Positions 6,247 through 21,512 of a DNA stretch of 25,752 bases are shown here, in pieces (position 1 is the stretch's first letter; each line of letters begins with the position of its first letter). Source of the stretch: a virus. The DNA lies in the IMG/VR virus record IMGVR_UViG_3300007540_000089, positions 1 through 25,752 of that record. One strand, 5' to 3'. Both the position numbers and the translations under genes were made by a program. The notes below the pieces were generated by a model. The model did no database searches and was not told where the DNA came from. It saw nothing but the letters and a program-made list of their open reading frames with translations.

Positions 6247-8120
6247 TTAATTTAAAAGTAAATTTAGGCTCATCTGAAGAGGACTTAAAAAACCTTGGTG
6301 ATGCATTTAAAAAAGTAGATAAAGAAGCTACTAATTTAGATGCAACATTTGAGGAGATATACGGTGATTTAAAACCTTTAACTGCTCGAATGGGTGAACA
6401 AGAAGATAGGCTTTATGAATTAGCAAAAGCGGGGAAACAAAGTTCACAAGAATATAAAGACTTATTAAAATCAGTTGGTGAATATAAAAGAGTTCAGCAA
6501 CAAACAGATTTAATAGTTGATGCATCTGCTCAAACATTAGGAACGAAACTGTCAGGTTCTTTAAATGCGGTTGCAGGTGGTTTTTCATTAGCACAAGGAG
6601 CGGTTGGATTATTTGGTACAGAATCTGAAAACGTAGAAAAAGCTATTTTAAAAGTTCAATCTGCAATGGCTATAAGTCAAGGATTCGAAACTATAAATCA
6701 AGGCTCTAAAAGCGTTAAAGCATTAGGAGAAACAATAAAAGCAACTACTGTATTTCAGAAATTGCAAACTGCTGCAACTGCTGCTCAAACATTTGTAACC
6801 AATGGAGCGACATTAGCAACTAAGGCTTTAAGAGGTGCTTTAGTAGCTACGGGAATAGGTGCTTTAGTTGTTGGTGTAGGTTTGTTAATTGCTAATTTTG
6901 ATAAAGTTAAAAAGGTAATTTTAAATTTAATTCCTGGACTTTCTAAAGTTGGTGATTTCATTGGTAGTATAGTAGATTCTGTTACTGATTTTGTAGGTGC
7001 AACTTCAGATGCTAGTAGAGCGTTAGATAAATTAAAAGCAAATGCAGATAAAACTTTATCAGTAAATAAAAAATTCTTACAAGAACATTCTGACCAAATA
7101 GATGAATATACTAAGAAAAAGATTGAAGCTAAAAATGCATACTCCGAAGCAGTAAAAGAAGAAGGTGCTGACCAAATTGCATTAGCTAAAAAACTCAATA
7201 GAGAATTAGCCGCCATAGAATATTCACGTGGTGATGAAAAAAGAAAAATACAAAAAGAAAATGATGATAAACTAAAAGCAGATAGAAAAGCAAAATCAGA
7301 AAAAGATAAAGCAGATAGAGAAGCAGAAACTAAAAGGTTAAAAGATGAAAAATTAGCTGAAGAAATGCAATCGGCTAAAGATGCTTTAGCTATTCAAAAA
7401 GCATTACAAGAATCACAAGAAACACCAATACAAAAAGAACAAAGAGAATATTTAGAAAAGAAAGCTATATTAGAAGCTAATAATGTAGATACTGAACTAT
7501 TAACTAAAACGCATAATGACGCTATTAATAAGCTAAATATAGATAGTTATGTAGCAGATTTTGAAGCAACAAAAAAGAAAACTGAAGACGAAAAGGAACA
7601 ATCTGACGCAAGAAAGAAAATAATTGAAGCAGAATATGCTTTTAAAATAGGTCAGGCTAGAGAAGCAAGTGCAGTATTAGGTCAATTATCTGAATTAGCA
7701 GGAAAAGAAACTGCTGCGGGTAAAGCATTAGGGATTGCAAGTGCTACGATAAATACCTATGTGGGTGTATCTGAAGCATTAAAACAAAAATCAACCCTAC
7801 CATCTCCTTTTGATGTTGTCGCTAAAGTTGCCAATGTAGCTACTATTTTAGCTACGGGTTTTAAAGCAGTAAGAGCAATTACTTCAGTTAAAGTTCCTGG
7901 AGGCGGTGGTGGTGGTTCTGCTCCAAGTCCAATATCAGTTCCTAACGCTACTGCTCCATCTGCACCTCAGTTTAATGTAGTTGGAACAAGTAACACAAGT
8001 CAATTAGCACAATCAATAGGACAAAAAGATGCAACACCTATAAAAGCATATGTAGTAAGTAATGATGTAAGTACGCAACAAGGATTAGATAGAGCAATTG
8101 TAAAAACTGCAACTTTATAA
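6231..8120 (+). CDS. Tape measure protein (629 aa)
   Basis: A long helical protein that sets tail length and is threaded through the tail tube. It starts MENKVVNLKVNLGSSEEDLK. It has Ala/Gly-rich amphipathic stretches, a hydrophobic segment near residues 207-225 (GIGALVVGVGLL), and a long Lys/Glu/Ala coiled coil around residues 335-480. A Gly run near residue 557 is followed by a Pro/Ser/Thr-rich tail. This arrangement is typical of siphophage tape measures. At about 0.15 nm per residue the length would predict a tail near 95 nm. ATG 6231 is inside the preceding 48-residue gene. No terminator follows; a homing endonuclease gene comes next. Confidence 0.85.
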   Translation: MENKVVNLKVNLGSSEEDLKNLGDAFKKVDKEATNLDATFEEIYGDLKPLTARMGEQEDRLYELAKAGKQSSQEYKDLLKSVGEYKRVQQQTDLIVDASAQTLGTKLSGSLNAVAGGFSLAQGAVGLFGTESENVEKAILKVQSAMAISQGFETINQGSKSVKALGETIKATTVFQKLQTAATAAQTFVTNGATLATKALRGALVATGIGALVVGVGLLIANFDKVKKVILNLIPGLSKVGDFIGSIVDSVTDFVGATSDASRALDKLKANADKTLSVNKKFLQEHSDQIDEYTKKKIEAKNAYSEAVKEEGADQIALAKKLNRELAAIEYSRGDEKRKIQKENDDKLKADRKAKSEKDKADREAETKRLKDEKLAEEMQSAKDALAIQKALQESQETPIQKEQREYLEKKAILEANNVDTELLTKTHNDAINKLNIDSYVADFEATKKKTEDEKEQSDARKKIIEAEYAFKIGQAREASAVLGQLSELAGKETAAGKALGIASATINTYVGVSEALKQKSTLPSPFDVVAKVANVATILATGFKAVRAITSVKVPGGGGGGSAPSPISVPNATAPSAPQFNVVGTSNTSQLAQSIGQKDATPIKAYVVSNDVSTQQGLDRAIVKTATL

Positions 8121-17448: not shown

Positions 17449-17920
17449 AATAAGTATTATCATATGTGGTGCACTTTTTTTTAGTTGTGCATCTAGAAAA
17501 GTAGATATAAATAAAACAGAAATAAAAAAAGATAGTTTAGTTGAAAAATTAATTACTATTAAAGATACTATTTCAGAAAAAAAAGAATCTAAAATTAATT
17601 ATAGTATATTTTCAGATATAAATGAAATAACTATTAAACCAATAGACACATCAAAAGCAATTGAAATAAACGGTATTAAATACAAAAACGTTGTTTTAAG
17701 CGTTAAAAATAGTAAAGTTAATAGTTTATACAATAAAGAAGAAATAACATCTAAAAACGTGTCTAAAATAACAACTGAAAAGAATAAGACACATTTAACA
17801 ACTAAAGAAAATATAAAAGAAAAAAAAGTAAATAAAAAAGCAAATTATTTTGTTTATTTATGGTTACTTATTTTACCATTAATTTATTTTTTATATCGGT
17901 CAATTAAGTTTAAAGCATAA
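17438..17920 (+). CDS. Candidate unimolecular spanin (lipoprotein plus C-terminal TM, 160 aa)
   Basis: The N-terminus is a lipoprotein signal (MNFKISIIICGALFFSCASR) with lipobox Cys17, which would place the mature end in the outer membrane. The middle (~18-135) is a Lys/Glu/Thr-rich periplasmic stalk. Residues 138-154 (FVYLWLLILPLIYFLY) form one membrane segment followed by a basic tail, which would sit in the inner membrane. This double anchoring defines u-spanins such as T1 gp11, which fuse the two membranes at the last step of lysis. Position at the end of the lysis block supports this. Plain lipoprotein remains possible. Confidence 0.7.
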   Translation: MNFKISIIICGALFFSCASRKVDINKTEIKKDSLVEKLITIKDTISEKKESKINYSIFSDINEITIKPIDTSKAIEINGIKYKNVVLSVKNSKVNSLYNKEEITSKNVSKITTEKNKTHLTTKENIKEKKVNKKANYFVYLWLLILPLIYFLYRSIKFKA

Positions 17921-18104
17921 TTTTCCCTAAAATTTTTGTTCGCTTATTTTAATTTATTTTTGTTTACTTATTTTAAATATATTTTTTAGTTATTTATTTA
18001 GTTTTTAAGAACATTACAAATTTACAGTTTTTTTTTGACAAAATTGCAATGATTTAAATAAAGTTATTAACCGAAATGTTTAAAACGTAATATTACATTT
18101 GTAT
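17921..18104. other. Gene-free AT-rich spacer between lysis genes and ninG-like gene
   Basis: About 180 bases of very AT-rich sequence with many T runs. No hairpin terminator and no convincing small gene are visible. It ends in the -7 box at 18094-18101. Confidence 0.5.
18094..18101 (+). promoter_or_regulatory. Promoter -7 box TACATTTG, possibly giving a leaderless mRNA
   Basis: TACATTTG matches TAnnTTTG. If the box spans about -11 to -4, transcription starts at 18105, the A of the ATG of the NinG-like gene. No -33 TTG is evident. Confidence 0.45.
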
Positions 18105-18479
18105 ATGAAGAAACCTACTCGTAAATCTTTAGTTACAAAACTAGATACTGTGTTTAGTCAATACATAAGACGCAAGGATGCGGTGAATGATATTGCTGAG
18201 TGTATTACTTGTGGTAAAAAAGACCATTATAAAAAATTGCAATGTGGTCATTTTATGAGTAGAAGACATTACTCTACTAGATGGGATGAGAATAATGTTG
18301 GTGTTCAATGTTATGGTTGCAACATCACTAATCAGGGTCAACAATATATTTTTAGTCAATATCTTGGTAATAACTTATCTGAAGAAATGTATTTAAAATC
18401 AAAACAAATAGTTAAATTTGCTGATGTAGATTTAATTGATATGATTGATTATTATACTGAAAAGGTTTCTATGTTATAA
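18105..18479 (+). CDS. ninG: NinG/Rap-like recombination nuclease (124 aa)
   Basis: ATG 18105 is preferred; an in-frame TTG at 18099 overlaps the -7 box. The protein carries a zinc-binding HNH-like core: C33-x2-C36, LQCGHFMSRR (Cys47, His49) and C69-x2-C72 (VQCYGCN). The GHF.SR...RW.E.NV..QC..CN pattern is that of lambda NinG (Rap), a structure-specific nuclease acting on recombination intermediates. It is the only gene between the lysis block and the accessory array. It probably cooperates with the ERF protein at 21518, although an independent HNH role cannot be ruled out. Confidence 0.75.
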   Translation: MKKPTRKSLVTKLDTVFSQYIRRKDAVNDIAECITCGKKDHYKKLQCGHFMSRRHYSTRWDENNVGVQCYGCNITNQGQQYIFSQYLGNNLSEEMYLKSKQIVKFADVDLIDMIDYYTEKVSML

Positions 18480-18502
18480 AATTCTTTCTTTCCTGTTTTA
18501 AT

Positions 18503-18553
18503 ATGAATAGCATTAGTAGCCACCGCTCGAAGGGTAATAAATAAGAAGCTACT
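18503..18553 (+). other. Candidate structured RNA element with 13-codon frame
   Basis: AGTAGC (18515-18520) can pair with GCTACT (18548-18553). A 13-codon frame, MNSISSHRSKGNK, starts at 18503 and ends inside the loop. Upstream of it is only AT-rich sequence; downstream comes TTGTGGCCGAAATCGCAG and then a terminator. It could be a leader, an sRNA or nothing; 252 bases here lack an ordinary gene. Confidence 0.3.
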
Positions 18554-18610
18554 TTAATATATTGTGGCCGAAATCGCAGTATAATCTATTCGACTTTTGT
18601 TTGTTGAAAG

Positions 18611-18633
18611 CCCCTTTAATTAGGGGTTTTTTT
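18611..18633 (+). terminator. Rho-independent terminator after the ninG region
   Basis: CCCCT (18611-18615), loop TTAATT, AGGGG (18622-18626), then seven T. Flanking AAAG allows the stem to extend into the T tract, so it may work in both directions. It closes the ninG unit before promoter P2. Confidence 0.85.
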
Positions 18634-18645
18634 ATGCTTAAAAAG

Positions 18646-18704
18646 TTTTAACAAAATTTTAACAAAATTTAAAAATCAATATGTTTAAATATGTTGTATA
18701 TTTA
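18646..18704 (+). promoter_or_regulatory. Promoter P2 with tandem TTTTAACAAAA repeats
   Basis: TATATTTA at 18697-18704 is a near match to TAnnTTTG. Two perfect tandem copies of TTTTAACAAAA lie at 18646-18656 and 18657-18667. The leader up to ATG 18732 resembles those of P1 and P3. The 11-mers may be an operator or an activator site. Confidence 0.5.
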
Positions 18705-18731
18705 CACCATAGAAATAAACAAATAGAAATT

Positions 18732-18959
18732 ATGAAATCAGCAATGAATCAATTAGAAAAATGGATTTTAGATTACGAAAAAGTAAATGGATCTCCAACA
18801 ATGTGCGAAATTAAATCACAATTAGAAATGTTTAAAGAAGTTGAAAAATAACAAATTTTTGATGCTTATGATGCTGGAAATGATTTTGATGGAGATTGGG
18901 AAGCAGAAGAAAATTATTATAAAGAAACATTTGGCGACAATATAGAAGCTGGAATATAA
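18732..18959 (+). pseudogene. Small accessory gene split by an in-frame TAA
   Basis: A 39-codon frame (MKSAMNQLEKWILDYEKVNG...) ends at TAA 18849-18851. The same frame then continues without a shift for 35 codons, IFDAYDAGNDFDGDWEAEEN onward, to TAA 18957-18959. The second part is acidic and well formed and ends NIEAGI, similar to the QAGI end of the gene at 19427. A single base change (for example GAA to TAA) in a 75-residue gene is the simplest reading. Readthrough, or a functional 39-residue protein, are alternatives. It is the first gene after promoter P2. Confidence 0.6.
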
Positions 18960-19026
18960 CGGATAGCCGCTATAATTTCAGCGTGGAATTATGTAAACTG
19001 AACTGCATTTAAAAAACAAAAATATT
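18956..19026 (+). repeat. Array element A (degenerate)
   Basis: Starts with TAACGGA just at the stop codon of the broken gene, as do elements B, C and D. It contains a short palindrome, CCGCT...AGCG, and ends in AAATATTATGA at the next start codon. No long arms are visible. Confidence 0.4.
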
Positions 19027-19260
19027 ATGAAAGTAAATGGAACAGAATATGGTTTTTCAATTTTTCCTAGCTATGGAAAAGTACAGGCTGAGATATACAA
19101 GGTATCTAGTTATAAATTAGATGTAGAAATGAATATGCATATAAGACTTTTAAATAAAGATTTCGGATCTATTTTTAGAAGTCCAAATGAAAACGATTAT
19201 AAAAACGCTAGAAAATGGGTTGATATACAAATGAAGTCTATTTTAGACGCTAACGCTTAA
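19027..19260 (+). CDS. Accessory array gene, unknown function (77 aa)
   Basis: Begins MKVNGTEYGFSIFPSYGKVQ after the leader AAAAATATT. It is a mixed alpha/beta soluble protein: strands AEIYKVSSYKLDVEM and MHIRLLNKDFGSIF, then a helix KNARKWVDIQMKSIL. No signal peptide, cysteine or known motif. It lies between array elements A and B in one direction with its neighbours, with no promoter of its own that I can see. Family not recognised. Confidence 0.5.
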   Translation: MKVNGTEYGFSIFPSYGKVQAEIYKVSSYKLDVEMNMHIRLLNKDFGSIFRSPNENDYKNARKWVDIQMKSILDANA

Positions 19261-19265
19261 TCTTG

Positions 19266-19426
19266 CTGTTAACGGAATCGCATAACAGAAGTTACGGATA
19301 AGTAAATCCTGAAACTCCAAATTAAAGACTAATAAAACCAAGTACAAACTAAACATTAAATTAATCAACCAAGCCGTAATTACTGTTATGCAGTGTTATA
19401 TTCTTGGCTTTTTAAACGCAAACATT
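19266..19426 (+). repeat. Array element B with 18-bp inverted arms
   Basis: GTTAACGGA is followed by arm 1, GCATAACAGAAGTTACGG (19280-19297), and arm 2, CCGTAATTACTGTTATGC (19374-19391). They pair at 16 of 18 positions across a 76-nt loop. The outer ends GCATAAC/GTTATGC resemble the core sites of integron attC sites. A T run and ATTATGA follow. Confidence 0.7.
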
Positions 19427-19678
19427 ATGAAAACAGCAGGACAAGATTTTTTAGAATGGTATAACTATTACGTAAAAAAATACGGATGCTCTCCAAGTGA
19501 TTACGATGTGAACTATTTTTGGAACGGAGGTAATTTAGAAAAAGAAAAACAGCAAATTATGGACGCTAGAATAGACGGAGTTACTAAAAGTTTAGCATTG
19601 CCACCTAGTTATTCTATTAAAAACGCAGAGGAGTACTACAAGAATACGTATATCGACTCCAACCAAGCTGGAATATAA
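19427..19678 (+). CDS. Accessory array gene, unknown function (83 aa)
   Basis: ATG 19427 (MKTAGQDFLEWYNYYVKKYG) is chosen; an upstream in-frame ATG at 19388 lies inside the inverted repeat. The protein is helical and rich in Tyr, Trp and Asn (VNYFWNGGNLEKEKQQIMDA, NAEEYYKNTYIDSNQAGI). Its C-terminal AGI and the following TAACGG repeat the layout of the broken gene at 18732. No domain recognised. It sits between elements B and C. Confidence 0.5.
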   Translation: MKTAGQDFLEWYNYYVKKYGCSPSDYDVNYFWNGGNLEKEKQQIMDARIDGVTKSLALPPSYSIKNAEEYYKNTYIDSNQAGI

Positions 19679-19811
19679 CGGAAGGTTGCTTGGCATCTGT
19701 TGCCGATAACGTGAACGGAATTATGAAAAATAAATTTAATATTACCAGCGGATTTTCAGCTGAAAAACTAAACGGCAATAGTGCCAAACAACTGTTAACA
19801 ACTGTAATTTT
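19676..19811 (+). repeat. Array element C with ~20-bp inverted arms
   Basis: TAACGGAA, then arm 1 at 19685-19705 (GTTGCTTGGCA, TCTG, TTGCCG), a 67-nt loop and arm 2 at 19773-19792 (CGGCAA, TAG, TGCCAAACAAC). The arms pair on both sides of an unpaired central bubble with one C-A mismatch. GTTAACA follows arm 2. Confidence 0.7.
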
Positions 19812-19815
19812 ATGA
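19723..19815 (+). CDS. Possible mini-protein within element C (30 aa)
   Basis: A short frame, MKNKFNITSGFSAEKLNGNS..., starts in the loop of element C and crosses arm 2. It ends with an ATGA overlap at the start of the next gene. The overlap suggests translational coupling, perhaps a leader peptide, but the frame is short and may be fortuitous. Confidence 0.3.
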   Translation: MKNKFNITSGFSAEKLNGNSAKQLLTTVIL

Positions 19816-20117
19816 AAACATCATTTTGGATTTTATTTAGTCTATTCTTTATTATTTATAGCTCTAAACCAACATTAAGTATTAAACCATTTGCAATTAG
19901 TTTTGAATCTCCTTACACACCATTCGGTATAATTTTTCTAATACTTTCTCTCAGTTGCTTTCAGTTACAAACAAGAAAAGATACAAAAAAAGAATTAATA
20001 AAAACTTACTACGTTGAAGGAATAAATGACGGATTTGATAAGGCTGTTGAATCAATTAATTTAGAACTAAAAAAACAAGGTAAAGAATCAAAGATAATAA
20101 TTGAAAGCAACAACTAG
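19812..20117 (+). CDS. Accessory array membrane protein (101 aa)
   Basis: Two hydrophobic segments, residues about 5-18 (FWILFSLFFIIYSS) and 36-52 (TPFGIIFLILSLSCFQL), are followed by a charged cytoplasmic tail. The tail holds TRKDTKKELIKTYYVEGIND and GFDKAVESINLELKKQGKES. Topology suggests an inner-membrane protein with a helical soluble tail. No family recognised. In a phage accessory array such proteins are often exclusion or host-takeover factors, but this is only a general possibility. The last codons form one arm of the hairpin of element D. Confidence 0.5.
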   Translation: MKTSFWILFSLFFIIYSSKPTLSIKPFAISFESPYTPFGIIFLILSLSCFQLQTRKDTKKELIKTYYVEGINDGFDKAVESINLELKKQGKESKIIIESNN

Positions 20118-20209
20118 CTATTATAGTTGTTAACGGAAGGTATCCTTGCTTAGTGGCTGAATTAAAACTATTGCAAACAAATATAAACTAATCATTAAAT
20201 GCAAAAATT
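20109..20209 (+). repeat. Array element D (short hairpin form)
   Basis: AACAACTA (20109-20116) and TAGTTGTT (20124-20131) form an 8-bp hairpin over the stop codon, then GTTAACGGAAGG and a small AAGG-TAT-CCTT hairpin. The 3' end AAACTAATCATTAAATGC is like the loop of element B. Confidence 0.5.
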
Positions 20210-20347
20210 ATGAGTAAAGAAAAAACAAATGAGCCATTATGCAAGACTGATGTTAACAAATTGGTTTGCAAGCACTGTGGTAACAAATTATGCCCAAGTC
20301 AAACATTTAATGAGGAATGTTTCAAGTGTGGTAAAAAGCCTTTGTAG
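20210..20347 (+). CDS. Small zinc-ribbon-like protein (45 aa)
   Basis: A 45-residue frame, MSKEKTNEPLCKTDVNKLVC onward. Two CxxC knuckles (CKHCGNKL and CFKCGKKP), 20 residues apart, match a zinc ribbon, and two further cysteines lie outside them. Such minimal zinc ribbons usually mediate protein or nucleic acid contacts. It is preceded by element D and followed by element E, with the usual AAAAATTATGA start context. Conserved cysteine spacing makes a real gene likely despite its size. Confidence 0.6.
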   Translation: MSKEKTNEPLCKTDVNKLVCKHCGNKLCPSQTFNEECFKCGKKPL

Positions 20348-20357
20348 CAAACTGTTT

Positions 20358-20512
20358 GTTAACGTTCATTATTGTAGCAGTTAAGGAAAAGTACACCTTA
20401 TGCTTCGATTAAAGACCAAATTTTAAAAGTACAAAACAATAATCAAATTAATAACCAAAGCCTTAATTGCTACAATATATTGTTGTAGGTAGGTTTTTTA
20501 ACACCACTAATT
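20358..20512 (+). repeat. Array element E with 17-bp inverted arms
   Basis: GTTAACG, then arm 1 (20370-20386) and arm 2 (20461-20477). TATTGTAGCAGTTAAGG pairs with CCTTAATTGCTACAATA over 17 bp with one G-U. The loop is 74 nt and resembles that of element B. GTTGTAGGTAGGTTTTTT follows at 20482-20499. Confidence 0.7.
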
Positions 20513-20764
20513 ATGACACCAAAAGAAGAAGCACAAGATTTAATAGACAAAATGACGATGGAAATAGGTAAATTTAACGCTAAACAATGTGCGTTAATTG
20601 CTGTTAATGAAATAATAAAATACCACGAATCATTATTTGATAAAGGATTTAAAGATATTCATATTGCACTTTCATCGCCAATAAAAACTTATCTAGATAT
20701 TATGAATCCTTTATTAAAACACCTGATAGAAGTAAGAGAAGAATTAAAAAACCTACCTGCGTAA
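20513..20764 (+). CDS. Conserved small accessory protein (83 aa)
   Basis: Begins MTPKEEAQDLIDKMTMEIGK and contains FNAKQCALIAVNEIIKYHES. I recall an AKQCALIAVDEI-type signature from small proteins common in Bacteroidota phages and mobile elements. It is all-helical and soluble; function unknown. The gene is bracketed by a 12-bp inverted repeat, GGTAGGTTTTTT (20488-20499) and AAAAAACCTACC (20746-20757). The second arm lies within its last codons (KNLPA). Confidence 0.65.
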   Translation: MTPKEEAQDLIDKMTMEIGKFNAKQCALIAVNEIIKYHESLFDKGFKDIHIALSSPIKTYLDIMNPLLKHLIEVREELKNLPA

Positions 20765-20864
20765 CTTTGGCACCAAAGTTGAGCAAACTTACCTACAACT
20801 GCTAATATCGTATAAGCGTAGTAAATTTATAAATTATAAAAAGTCTTATTTATTACGTTTATAC
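20763..20864 (+). repeat. Array element F with two palindromes
   Basis: AACTTTGG-CA-CCAAAGTT (20763-20780) is a perfect 8+8 palindrome overlapping the stop codon. ACCTACAAC (20791-20799) is complementary to GTTGTAGGT at 20482-20490. Further on, arms 20810-20826 and 20848-20864 pair over 17 bp with two G-U wobbles around a 21-nt loop. No T tract follows, so it is not a standard terminator. Confidence 0.65.
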
Positions 20865-20877
20865 TAAGTTATAAAAT

Positions 20878-20933
20878 TAACAAAATATTAACAGTTTTAA
20901 ATAACCAATATTTAAAAAACATTTATATATTTG
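20878..20933 (+). promoter_or_regulatory. Promoter P3 (TATATTTG) with TTAACA repeats
   Basis: TATATTTG at 20926-20933 matches TAnnTTTG. TTAACAAAATATTAACAG lies at 20878-20895, about the same distance upstream as the 11-mers of P1 and P2. The leader to ATG 20961 is nearly identical to those promoters. It drives the recombination and replication operon. Confidence 0.65.
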
Positions 20934-20960
20934 TACTCAACAAACAAACAAATAGAAATT

Positions 20961-21050
20961 ATGAAAAATAATTTAAAAGATTTCGGAGCATCATTAGTAT
21001 TTATGTTTATACTAATAACATTATACACAACTTTAATATCACTAATATAA
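20961..21050 (+). CDS. Small membrane peptide (29 aa)
   Basis: MKNNLKDFGASLVFMFILIT onward: after a short polar head the rest is one membrane segment ending TTLISLI. It is the first frame after promoter P3 and its stop overlaps the next start (TAATG). Function unknown; single-span phage peptides of this kind may act on host membrane proteins. Reality is supported by the promoter and coupling, not by homology. Confidence 0.45.
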   Translation: MKNNLKDFGASLVFMFILITLYTTLISLI

Positions 21051-21229
21051 TGAAAGATTTACTAGATTTCCAAAGGTTTCAAATCCAAAGTTTGCAAAAT
21101 AGAATATGTGAACTTGAAAATCAAAACAACATTCTTACTGAATACATTTTTGAAGCTTTAGACGAACAATGTACGCAAGAATATAAGACTATAATAAAAA
21201 AAGAAATTTACACCTTAAAACAACCTTAA
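21050..21229 (+). CDS. Small helical protein (59 aa)
   Basis: Begins MKDLLDFQRFQIQSLQNRIC with heptad-like spacing through ELENQNNILTEYIFEALDEQ, then a charged end. A short coiled coil is likely. It overlaps the preceding stop by one base and is one base away from the lipoprotein gene. I recognise no family; small coiled-coil proteins ahead of ERF genes occur in phage early operons. Confidence 0.5.
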   Translation: MKDLLDFQRFQIQSLQNRICELENQNNILTEYIFEALDEQCTQEYKTIIKKEIYTLKQP

Positions 21230-21230
21230 A

Positions 21231-21512
21231 ATGAAAAAAGTTTTATTTTCAGCAATTATTATAACAACGTTATTTAGTTGCACAAATAATGAGTTAATAC
21301 AAGAGGATTGTAGTTGTGATGAAATAGTAAGTAAAAAAGTTTCTGCTGATTATGGTTCTAATCCAAGAGTAATAGTTTTATATCACACAAAAAATTATTG
21401 TTCAAATGTAGAAAAAGATTTTAATTTAGTAATCGACGCAACTTACTCAGGAGTAATTAATGCGTTAAATGATTCTAGGATTCAAGAAATAGGTAAATGT
21501 TATAAAAAATAA
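21231..21512 (+). CDS. Putative lipoprotein (93 aa)
   Basis: MKKVLFSAIIITTLFSCTNN is a lipoprotein signal with lipobox Cys17 (LFSC). The mature part is short, with four more cysteines (DCSCDE, NYCSN, GKCYKK), which may form disulfides in the periplasm. A lipoprotein in an early operon could serve superinfection exclusion, but nothing here proves that. It is an ordinary member of the P3 operon by spacing. Confidence 0.65.
   Translation: MKKVLFSAIIITTLFSCTNNELIQEDCSCDEIVSKKVSADYGSNPRVIVLYHTKNYCSNVEKDFNLVIDATYSGVINALNDSRIQEIGKCYKK

Follow-up and report, generated by a model that had tools for sequence, protein, structure and literature searches.

A mobile, integron-like array of small gene cassettes in a viral genome and its relatives in phages and Bacteroidota

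We analysed a stretch of 25,752 nucleotides of viral DNA (IMG/VR virus record IMGVR_UViG_3300007540_000089; hereafter the window), in which five small genes, all on the + strand, are separated by hairpin elements between positions 18958 and 20882. The array is real, mobile and integron-like. Sequence comparisons established its cassette borders, indels of single units, varying cassette content among relatives, an association with a recombinase and an attI-like site. We consider it probable that 18958-20882 is a small integron-like cassette array whose units consist of a hairpin and the gene downstream of it, and that an IntI-like recombinase is likely to serve it in trans. We infer that it is this recombinase that carries out the recombination, acting in trans and on folded single-stranded DNA.

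Cassette borders, hairpins and single-unit mobility

A previous reading based on the window's letters alone (the sequence-only reading) had described six intergenic elements, A to F. All six were found in place, either on a stop codon or directly behind one. Three are complete, namely B (19271-19397, from AAC at 19271-19273 to GTT at 19395-19397), C (19677-19796) and E (20361-20484), two are decayed and have lost their right half (A and D), and F closes the array. As in integron cassettes, the two halves of an inverted repeat, GTTnnnnnn...nnnnnnAAC, stand on either side of each intact gene, and the R' box (GTT..., after the hairpin) is complementary to the R'' box (...AAC, before the next hairpin) across the gene, not across the element. 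For cassette 2, GTTATATTC at 19395-19403 pairs with GAATATAAC at 19671-19679, which overlaps the stop codon of gene 2; for cassette 3, GTTAACAACT at 19794-19803 pairs with AGTTGTTAAC at 20125-20134; and for cassette 5, GTTGTAGGTA at 20482-20491 pairs with TACCTACAAC at 20790-20799. Beyond GTT and AAC, these box pairs (19395/19677, 19794/20132 and 20482/20797) match over 6, 7 and 7 nt, and only 7 of the 4156 GTT..AAC pairs that lie 200-600 nt apart in the window match over at least 6 nt, comprising the three cassette cases and four others. Arrays of a similar kind occur in isolated Flavobacterium phages and other viral contigs. In the nine-element array of a 50-kb viral contig (locus L005), 8/8 neighbouring box pairs match over 6-7 nt, and in eleven isolate phages with 10-15 elements each the boxes match 6/6 in most cassettes, with exceptions. 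A repeat of this kind is what cassette circularisation in integrons is expected to leave. The integron-like reading proposed from sequence alone was partly right but had missed the evidence for it, that is, the R-box repeats, the single-unit indels, the attI-like end and the recombinase; its candidate core sites for B, GCATAAC and GTTATGC, both sit inside the stem, and the real boxes are the flanking ..GTTAAC and GTTATATTC.

The elements share the architecture of integron attC sites, R''(AAC)-L''-loop-L'-R'(GTT), in which structure is conserved and arms vary. Imperfect inverted arms were confirmed for B (18-nt arms, 89% complementary, around a 76-nt loop), as was the kinship of B and E (72% along 61 nt that take in the right-hand side of the loop as well as the right arm). 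We scored elements with a finder that looks for AAC followed by G, a stem and GTT (AACG-stem-GTT), calling them at a score of 31 and, strictly, at 37. Three elements scoring at least 37 lie in window 18000-21500 compared to none in 300/300 dinucleotide shuffles, a comparison by which the sequence-only reading had proposed to expose arms arising by chance. An element's own arms pair with a median score of 42, which is high by construction, compared to 17 for swapped arms, 3/192 of which reach 33. The RYYYAAC and GTTRRRY boxes are not kept, as judged from the window R' boxes (GTTATAT, GTTAACA and GTTGTAG) and from position counts in 245 cassettes. RNA folding against 200 shuffles gave z values of -2.2 for A, -2.0 for B, -3.6 for C, -2.2 for E and -4.6 for F; the fold of D, with z -0.35, is not above chance. 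Within hairpins, the promoter motif TAnnTTTG occurs 30 times, compared to 14.7 in simple shuffles and 12.8 on the other strand. The body of element C is 92% identical to a hairpin in phage hattifnatt9-1, where it stands next to other genes. Left-arm copies of body C were also seen in L008, which is not an array of this type, each adjoining one of two identical GC-rich inverted repeats at 682-752 and 1275-1345.

Two pairs of nearly identical isolate phages, compared over their first 11-12 kb (record lengths show further differences elsewhere), differ by one unit each. Phages mumin6-1 and mumin6-3 (99.9% identical) are a single 506-bp unit apart, and sniff9-1 and sniff9-2 (at least 99.96%) a single 439-bp unit. 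Both indels run from AACG to AACG and share 6-7 bp at their borders; the 439-bp unit of sniff9-1 consists of a well-paired hairpin and a gene, and the 506-bp unit of mumin6-1 likewise contains a gene, and its R boxes match. Both natural indels thus have the form of a site-specific gain or loss of a single cassette, with one of the two sites poorly paired. The R' box ahead of the extra unit differs within the mumin6 pair: it reads GTTataggct in mumin6-1 (L478 5427-4191), where it does not match its R'', and GTTaaccgct, which matches, in mumin6-3 (L479 4921-4191), in otherwise ~99.9% identical DNA.

Cassette content also varies among relatives of the window. Contig L159 represents the same phage (99.98% over 8.3 kb). 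L160 and L161, with a backbone of 92-96% nucleotide identity, agree with the window only from the AAC box of F, at 20797, onwards and carry different cassettes to the left of it. The pattern that the sequence-only reading had named as fatal to its proposal, hits confined to colinear copies of this phage, is therefore not what was observed. In L163 the window's site is without an array, and a single cassette follows the ATPase gene instead; L217 carries an array of ~930 bp behind its ERF gene, a place that is free of arrays in L212, L197 and L218; and others have arrays directly after other backbone stop codons. A search of viral contigs with two cassette proteins matched 3 loci and 1 locus, respectively.

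The attI-like end and the associated recombinase

In 10/11 isolate phages the AAC of the last R'' leads into one and the same phage sequence, TACAATATTACATG..., with six different last R' boxes preceding it; the remaining isolate, snusmum9-1, gave no terminal match. Element F (20800-20882), which consists of TGCTAATATCGTATAAGCG, a hairpin and AAGTTATAA, corresponds in position to this invariant AAC|TACAATATTA end. It is common to L160 and L161, where other cassettes join it, and matches the array end in L217 at 83%.

Arrays of the same type are found beside a tyrosine recombinase. In L005 the recombinase (6886-7686), of 266 aa, adjoins the array and scores 150 bits against the integron integrase model TIGR02249 (cut-off 265) and 192 against NF040815 (cut-off 220). 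Elements are present in 62/73 viral loci with relatives of the recombinase, some of which are near-duplicates (L448/L449, L455/L459), with 239 elements upstream and 2 downstream on the recombinase strand and 3 on the other strand; the 11/73 loci without elements have less than 1.2 kb of upstream sequence. One viral contig, L462, carries two back-to-back arrays of 6 elements each on opposite strands. Among the 41 of the 62 array-bearing loci used in a test for the terminal box, a terminal R'' was found in 33, and in 31/33 it precedes the beginning of the recombinase match by 52-73 nt, another hairpin intervening in the other two. The viral consensus after AAC is TATTATATATA, from which single loci deviate.

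Relatives of the recombinase were also found, at E <= 1e-35, in 114/395 Bacteroidota genomes, and we studied 20 loci from the top 28 matches. These contain 66 elements in 345 kb, 24 of them with an exact 10-bp cassette repeat, compared to 11 elements and no repeat in 19 control stretches (378 kb) taken from genomes of the same scan. At ten Xer-like loci there were 3 elements, with 7/10 loci lacking any, and five further relatives of the recombinase gave 6 elements, 2 with the repeat. The chromosomal elements lie mostly on the expected side and strand (54, with 3 beyond the recombinase and 5 on the other strand), and a conserved site resembling AACTYRTTTAT is found within 300 nt of the recombinase stop codon in 18/20 loci, compared to a background of 0.007, the motif being derived from the same loci. 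As attI does beside an integrase, a terminal site thus accompanies the recombinase in viral (31/33) and chromosomal (18/20) loci alike. Several chromosomal recombinases from L120-L139 have an extra N-terminal segment of ~60-70 residues (...WHLPDT), absent from the L005 enzyme, as read from script-chosen start codons.

Within one Bacteroidota family, 140/199 genomes match a 9.1-kb array, among the matches listed mostly through one hairpin type. This type (L122 8971-9113) occurs at 83-99% identity in at least 80/199 genomes, often repeatedly per genome. Forty stretches of up to 20 kb around such matches hold up to 22 elements in 20 kb, and several hold none or one. We also tried a 20-nt body pattern on genome contigs and rejected it: it gave 50 stretches, with ~30 expected by our own estimate, and none carried the cassette repeat at threshold.

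The recombinases lack the hallmark of known integron integrases. All ten chromosomal proteins examined fall below the TIGR02249 cut-off of 265 (197-222 bits), as does that of L005, and they align to the model only until about position 180/315 in their best stretch. When one of them was aligned to Vibrio cholerae IntI4 (2A3V), the alignment broke at the IntI-specific insertion, where 12 residues face 54 in IntI4. The best NCBIfam match of the recombinases is NF040815, 'XerA_Arch'. In a tree of 60 rows, all picked from larger sets (17 phage, 20 chromosomal, 15 canonical IntI and 8 Bacteroidota Xer; eleven rows of unusual composition; rooted for drawing only), the phage enzymes with one chromosomal row, L134, and the chromosomal enzymes formed two supported clades (100/99 and 100/96), which together (97/91) are sister to the IntI rows and apart from Xer. 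The recombinase, which lacks the IntI-specific insertion, is thus sister to canonical IntI in this tree. The additional domain has been described as necessary for integron recombination and used to find IntI, in the passages of PMC9668308 that treat it. The window has no integrase of its own, and we do not class its array as an integron, because the tests for an IntI-domain integrase and for canonical cassette polarity (see below) were both negative.

Orientation of gene and site, and competing explanations

The gene faces opposite ways relative to the site in viral and chromosomal arrays. Relative to the AACG strand, 175 viral cassettes are in sense, 5 antisense and 12 ambiguous (n=192), compared to 14 sense, 189 antisense and 13 ambiguous on chromosomes (n=216). 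Because chromosomal genes are antisense to the AACG strand, the chromosomal cassette looks like a gene with a 3' site, the canonical form. Among ten families of chromosomal duplicates, the right border lies at AACG in ten and the left at AAC in nine, the tenth left border having been viewed out of register; four families have a clear frame, all antisense and all in keeping with the canonical cassette (a gene with attC on its 3' side and, in gene sense, a border at G|TT), and six have no clear frame. After removal of 6 trivial pairs from 40 (L005 = L078), 30/34 homologous chromosomal gene pairs share only one of the two flanking hairpins, always on the same side; many of the 34 come from one L318/L319 gene family, and at least ten families agree.

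Phage cassettes depart from this form. Of 17 viral gene pairs, 7 (5 families) share the 5' hairpin only, 8 neither, 1 both, and 1 is borderline the other way (0.79/0.87); none clearly shares the 3' hairpin along with the gene. In the six of the seven 5'-sharing pairs that were examined, identity ends on the right at 4-9 nt from where AAC begins. The phage unit is therefore a 5' hairpin plus gene bordered at AAC|G, and the gene is flipped relative to the site, because 175/192 cassettes have the opposite sense, the 5' hairpin is shared and the two indels agree. Judged from its sequence, the window array follows this phage form, with the site 5' of the gene. As a canonical control we used Pseudomonadota arrays beside TIGR02249 integrases, scoring both strands and discounting mirror copies. 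On the strand predicted by the position of the integrase, 8 pairs share the 3' site only (7 with one L372 cassette, 1 with L380), and a ninth leans the opposite way at the borderline (0.85/0.84). L380 has a clear gene sense (64 vs 23 codons), and the L372 family has no clear frame. Thin as it is, this control agrees with the canonical order of gene and 3' site.

An array of this kind could operate as follows. A cassette would be a foldable attC-like hairpin with one gene, closed by an R'' box (AAC), and crossover at AAC|G would move the hairpin and its downstream gene together. The recombinase would bind the folded site together with the attI-like end and cut at AAC|G, so that a phage operon gains or loses units at its promoter-distal end. 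Cassettes would enter and leave singly, abutting the invariant attI-like end on the promoter-distal side of an array transcribed from the phage's upstream side. The likely enzyme would be an IntI-like tyrosine recombinase without the IntI-specific insertion, encoded beside arrays of the same type in other viral contigs and on Bacteroidota chromosomes. More broadly, and with somewhat less assurance than for the array itself, we favour the view that there is a second integron branch, in use by Bacteroidota and their phages, with an integrase that either lost the supposedly necessary domain or never possessed it. The phage form would be inverted, with the gene behind the site; cassettes would be appended promoter-distally beside the integrase; and phages lacking the enzyme would share the pool in trans, trading gene by gene, including methyltransferases that may set host range.

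Several findings weigh against this interpretation. No PF00589 gene was found in the window record, which may be a fragment, nor in ten phage records (eight array-bearing Baltic isolates, phage 11b and P12002L); because of this, the window and isolate arrays would need an enzyme in trans. The window result bears out the suggestion, made from sequence alone, of a phage-borne cassette array without an integrase. A PF03237 terminase is present in only 7/20 recombinase-bearing viral contigs, so the viral origin of the rest relies on IMG/VR. One of the 10 Xer-like loci has an element with the repeat, and in 4/20 chromosomal loci the expected place is empty of elements. Where gene pairs are more distant, the hairpins differ on both sides (4/34 chromosomal pairs, which share neither, and L161/L288). 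In mumin6-1, the site arms of the 506-bp unit pair poorly and escaped the finder, and the cassette preceding that unit has a mismatched R' (2/6). Finally, the terminal site of the window resembles the viral consensus only loosely.

Of the alternatives, the one that fares best is an ordinary cluster of attC sites lacking an integron integrase (CALIN), made of canonical cassettes (gene plus 3' attC, G|TT) drawn from chromosomal integrons of the host and having no special phage form. CALINs are defined by at least 2 attC sites called by the published covariance model and no integrase; the window has 3 full sites by our own finder, and no PF00589 match. Phage CALINs have already been published, one of them in a Polaribacter phage (in the passages concerned of PMC9892861), and phage and chromosomal hairpins are alike in sequence and polarity. 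We nevertheless regard this explanation as unlikely, given the reversed orientation of genes relative to the site (175:5 against 14:189), the travel of the 5' hairpin with the gene, with a single exception at threshold, the agreement of the two indels, and the phage recombinases' own clade, which includes one chromosomal row.

A still less probable explanation is phage mosaicism without a dedicated recombinase, brought about by homologous or illegitimate recombination between repeated intergenic hairpins. Hairpin bodies do recur, phages are mosaic, and the array-bearing isolate records searched hold no recombinase gene. However, the borders of the indels have only 6-7 bp in common and fall at identical bases in the two cases, and ten chromosomal duplicate families have these same borders; mosaicism would also leave the gene-flanking R repeats without a role, and would not account for a recombinase downstream of the elements, on the array strand, in 62/73 viral loci. 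Lastly, a role of the elements as RNA hairpins between the cistrons of a variable operon, serving as terminators or processing sites, can be all but dismissed, since, although B, C, E and F have moderately stable RNA folds, terminator-like sites in 17900-21500 number only 3 compared to 1.2 expected, with none on B-F in gene sense, an Rfam scan of 17500-21500 gave no match, and the R-box repeats, borders and mobility would be left unexplained.

Relation to known systems and layout of the window array

The arrays resemble integrons, including sedentary chromosomal integrons, in being arrays of single-gene cassettes with AAC...GTT hairpins built of R and L stems, many of them with an unpaired base, in the complementary R boxes of each cassette, in the attI-like site beside a tyrosine recombinase, and in the single-unit indels. 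They differ in the missing IntI-specific insertion, in R boxes that do not keep GTTRRRY, in the shared direction of recombinase and genes and, in phages, in flipped genes with the hairpin 5' of the gene and an array read toward attI. The sequence-only reading had entertained a different, undescribed kind of element; the system is indeed unusual, but it is still a variant of the integron, with a domain-less integrase and reversed gene polarity. Like XerC, XerD and XerA, the recombinases lack the IntI insertion and find their best NCBIfam match in NF040815; unlike them, the array-linked proteins have IntI as their neighbour in the tree and are not part of the sampled Xer group, and most Xer-like loci have no element. 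Hairpin lengths peak near 125 nt, as in the Vibrio cholerae repeats (VCR), which are attC sites of ~125 nt, and the recurrence of one type across a family is a further likeness. The VCR sequence is unrelated to the hairpins described here and belongs to another phylum and integrase branch.

Clusters of cassettes in phages are already known. In the passages concerned, Qi et al. 2023 (PMC9892861) describe attC clusters that lack an integrase and are carried by virulent phages. Polaribacter phage P12002L is among these, and IntI1 recombined one of its sites, which may be one of the P12002L elements seen here, at G|TTRRRY. Unlike the arrays described here, theirs have canonical G|TTRRRY junctions; those passages hold no Bacteroidota integrase, attI or reversed polarity, and 'flavobacter' has 0 occurrences in the main text. 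For the Baltic isolates, described by Nilsson et al. 2020 (PMC7077304), the main text gives 0 matches to 'integron' or 'cassette'. What is new is a branch of integrases without the domain, the form it takes in phages, and the reversal of polarity; in the literature searched, a scope that leaves aside preprints and most subscription papers, no title or abstract opening was on either such a branch or such a polarity. IntegronFinder identifies integrases by the IntI-specific domain (as the relevant part of PMC9668308 has it), and we infer that a domain-less branch would therefore be recorded as no more than orphan attC clusters. One complete Bacteroidetes integron, in Salinibacter ruber, is named in the section concerned of the IntegronFinder 2.0 paper (PMC9024848).

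If the enzyme works as proposed, the extra domain would be unnecessary for attC recombination, which bears on the origin of integrons from Xer-like enzymes. The arrays would also explain variable accessory genes among phages, which could trade them singly. In mumin6-1 (L478 1649-6268), the four DNA methyltransferase genes annotated in the first 11 kb sit in the array region. According to the part of Nilsson et al. 2020 (PMC7077304) that deals with plating, some Muminvirus phages without one methyltransferase plated 3-4 orders lower on one host.

In the window, the array opens with element A (18958-19026), a decayed attC-like site that retains the AAC box at 18958-18960 and the left part, lacks the right arm and R', and scores below 31. 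Cassette gene 1 follows (19027-19260, 77 aa), then, behind element B, gene 2 (19427-19678, 83 aa, or 96 aa with a start at 19388) and, behind C, gene 3 (19812-20117, 101 aa). Element D (20132-20209), of which the left part remains and which also scores below 31, precedes gene 4 (20210-20347, 45 aa), with CxxC motifs that look zinc-ribbon-like by eye, and element E precedes gene 5 (20513-20764, 83 aa). None of the five has a Pfam family above the cut-off; among ten proteins searched, the one match above it was NinG, encoded by the gene preceding the array.

A 90-nt leader repeat brackets the array. Its left copy (18648-18737, + strand) holds a promoter-like TATATTTA followed by AAACAAATAGAAATTATGAAA and forms a direct repeat (D1), 76% identical, with the right copy (20877-20966, + strand), which runs into backbone genes. 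The relative L163, arrayless here, matches both copies with one stretch, and the array may lie between duplicated promoter-leaders. Between the left copy and element A, window 18735-18960 contains two consecutive frames, the downstream one of which ends in AGI* and a GGAATATAAC box like gene 2; it looks as if it were a cassette gene that has lost its site or been broken by a stop codon.

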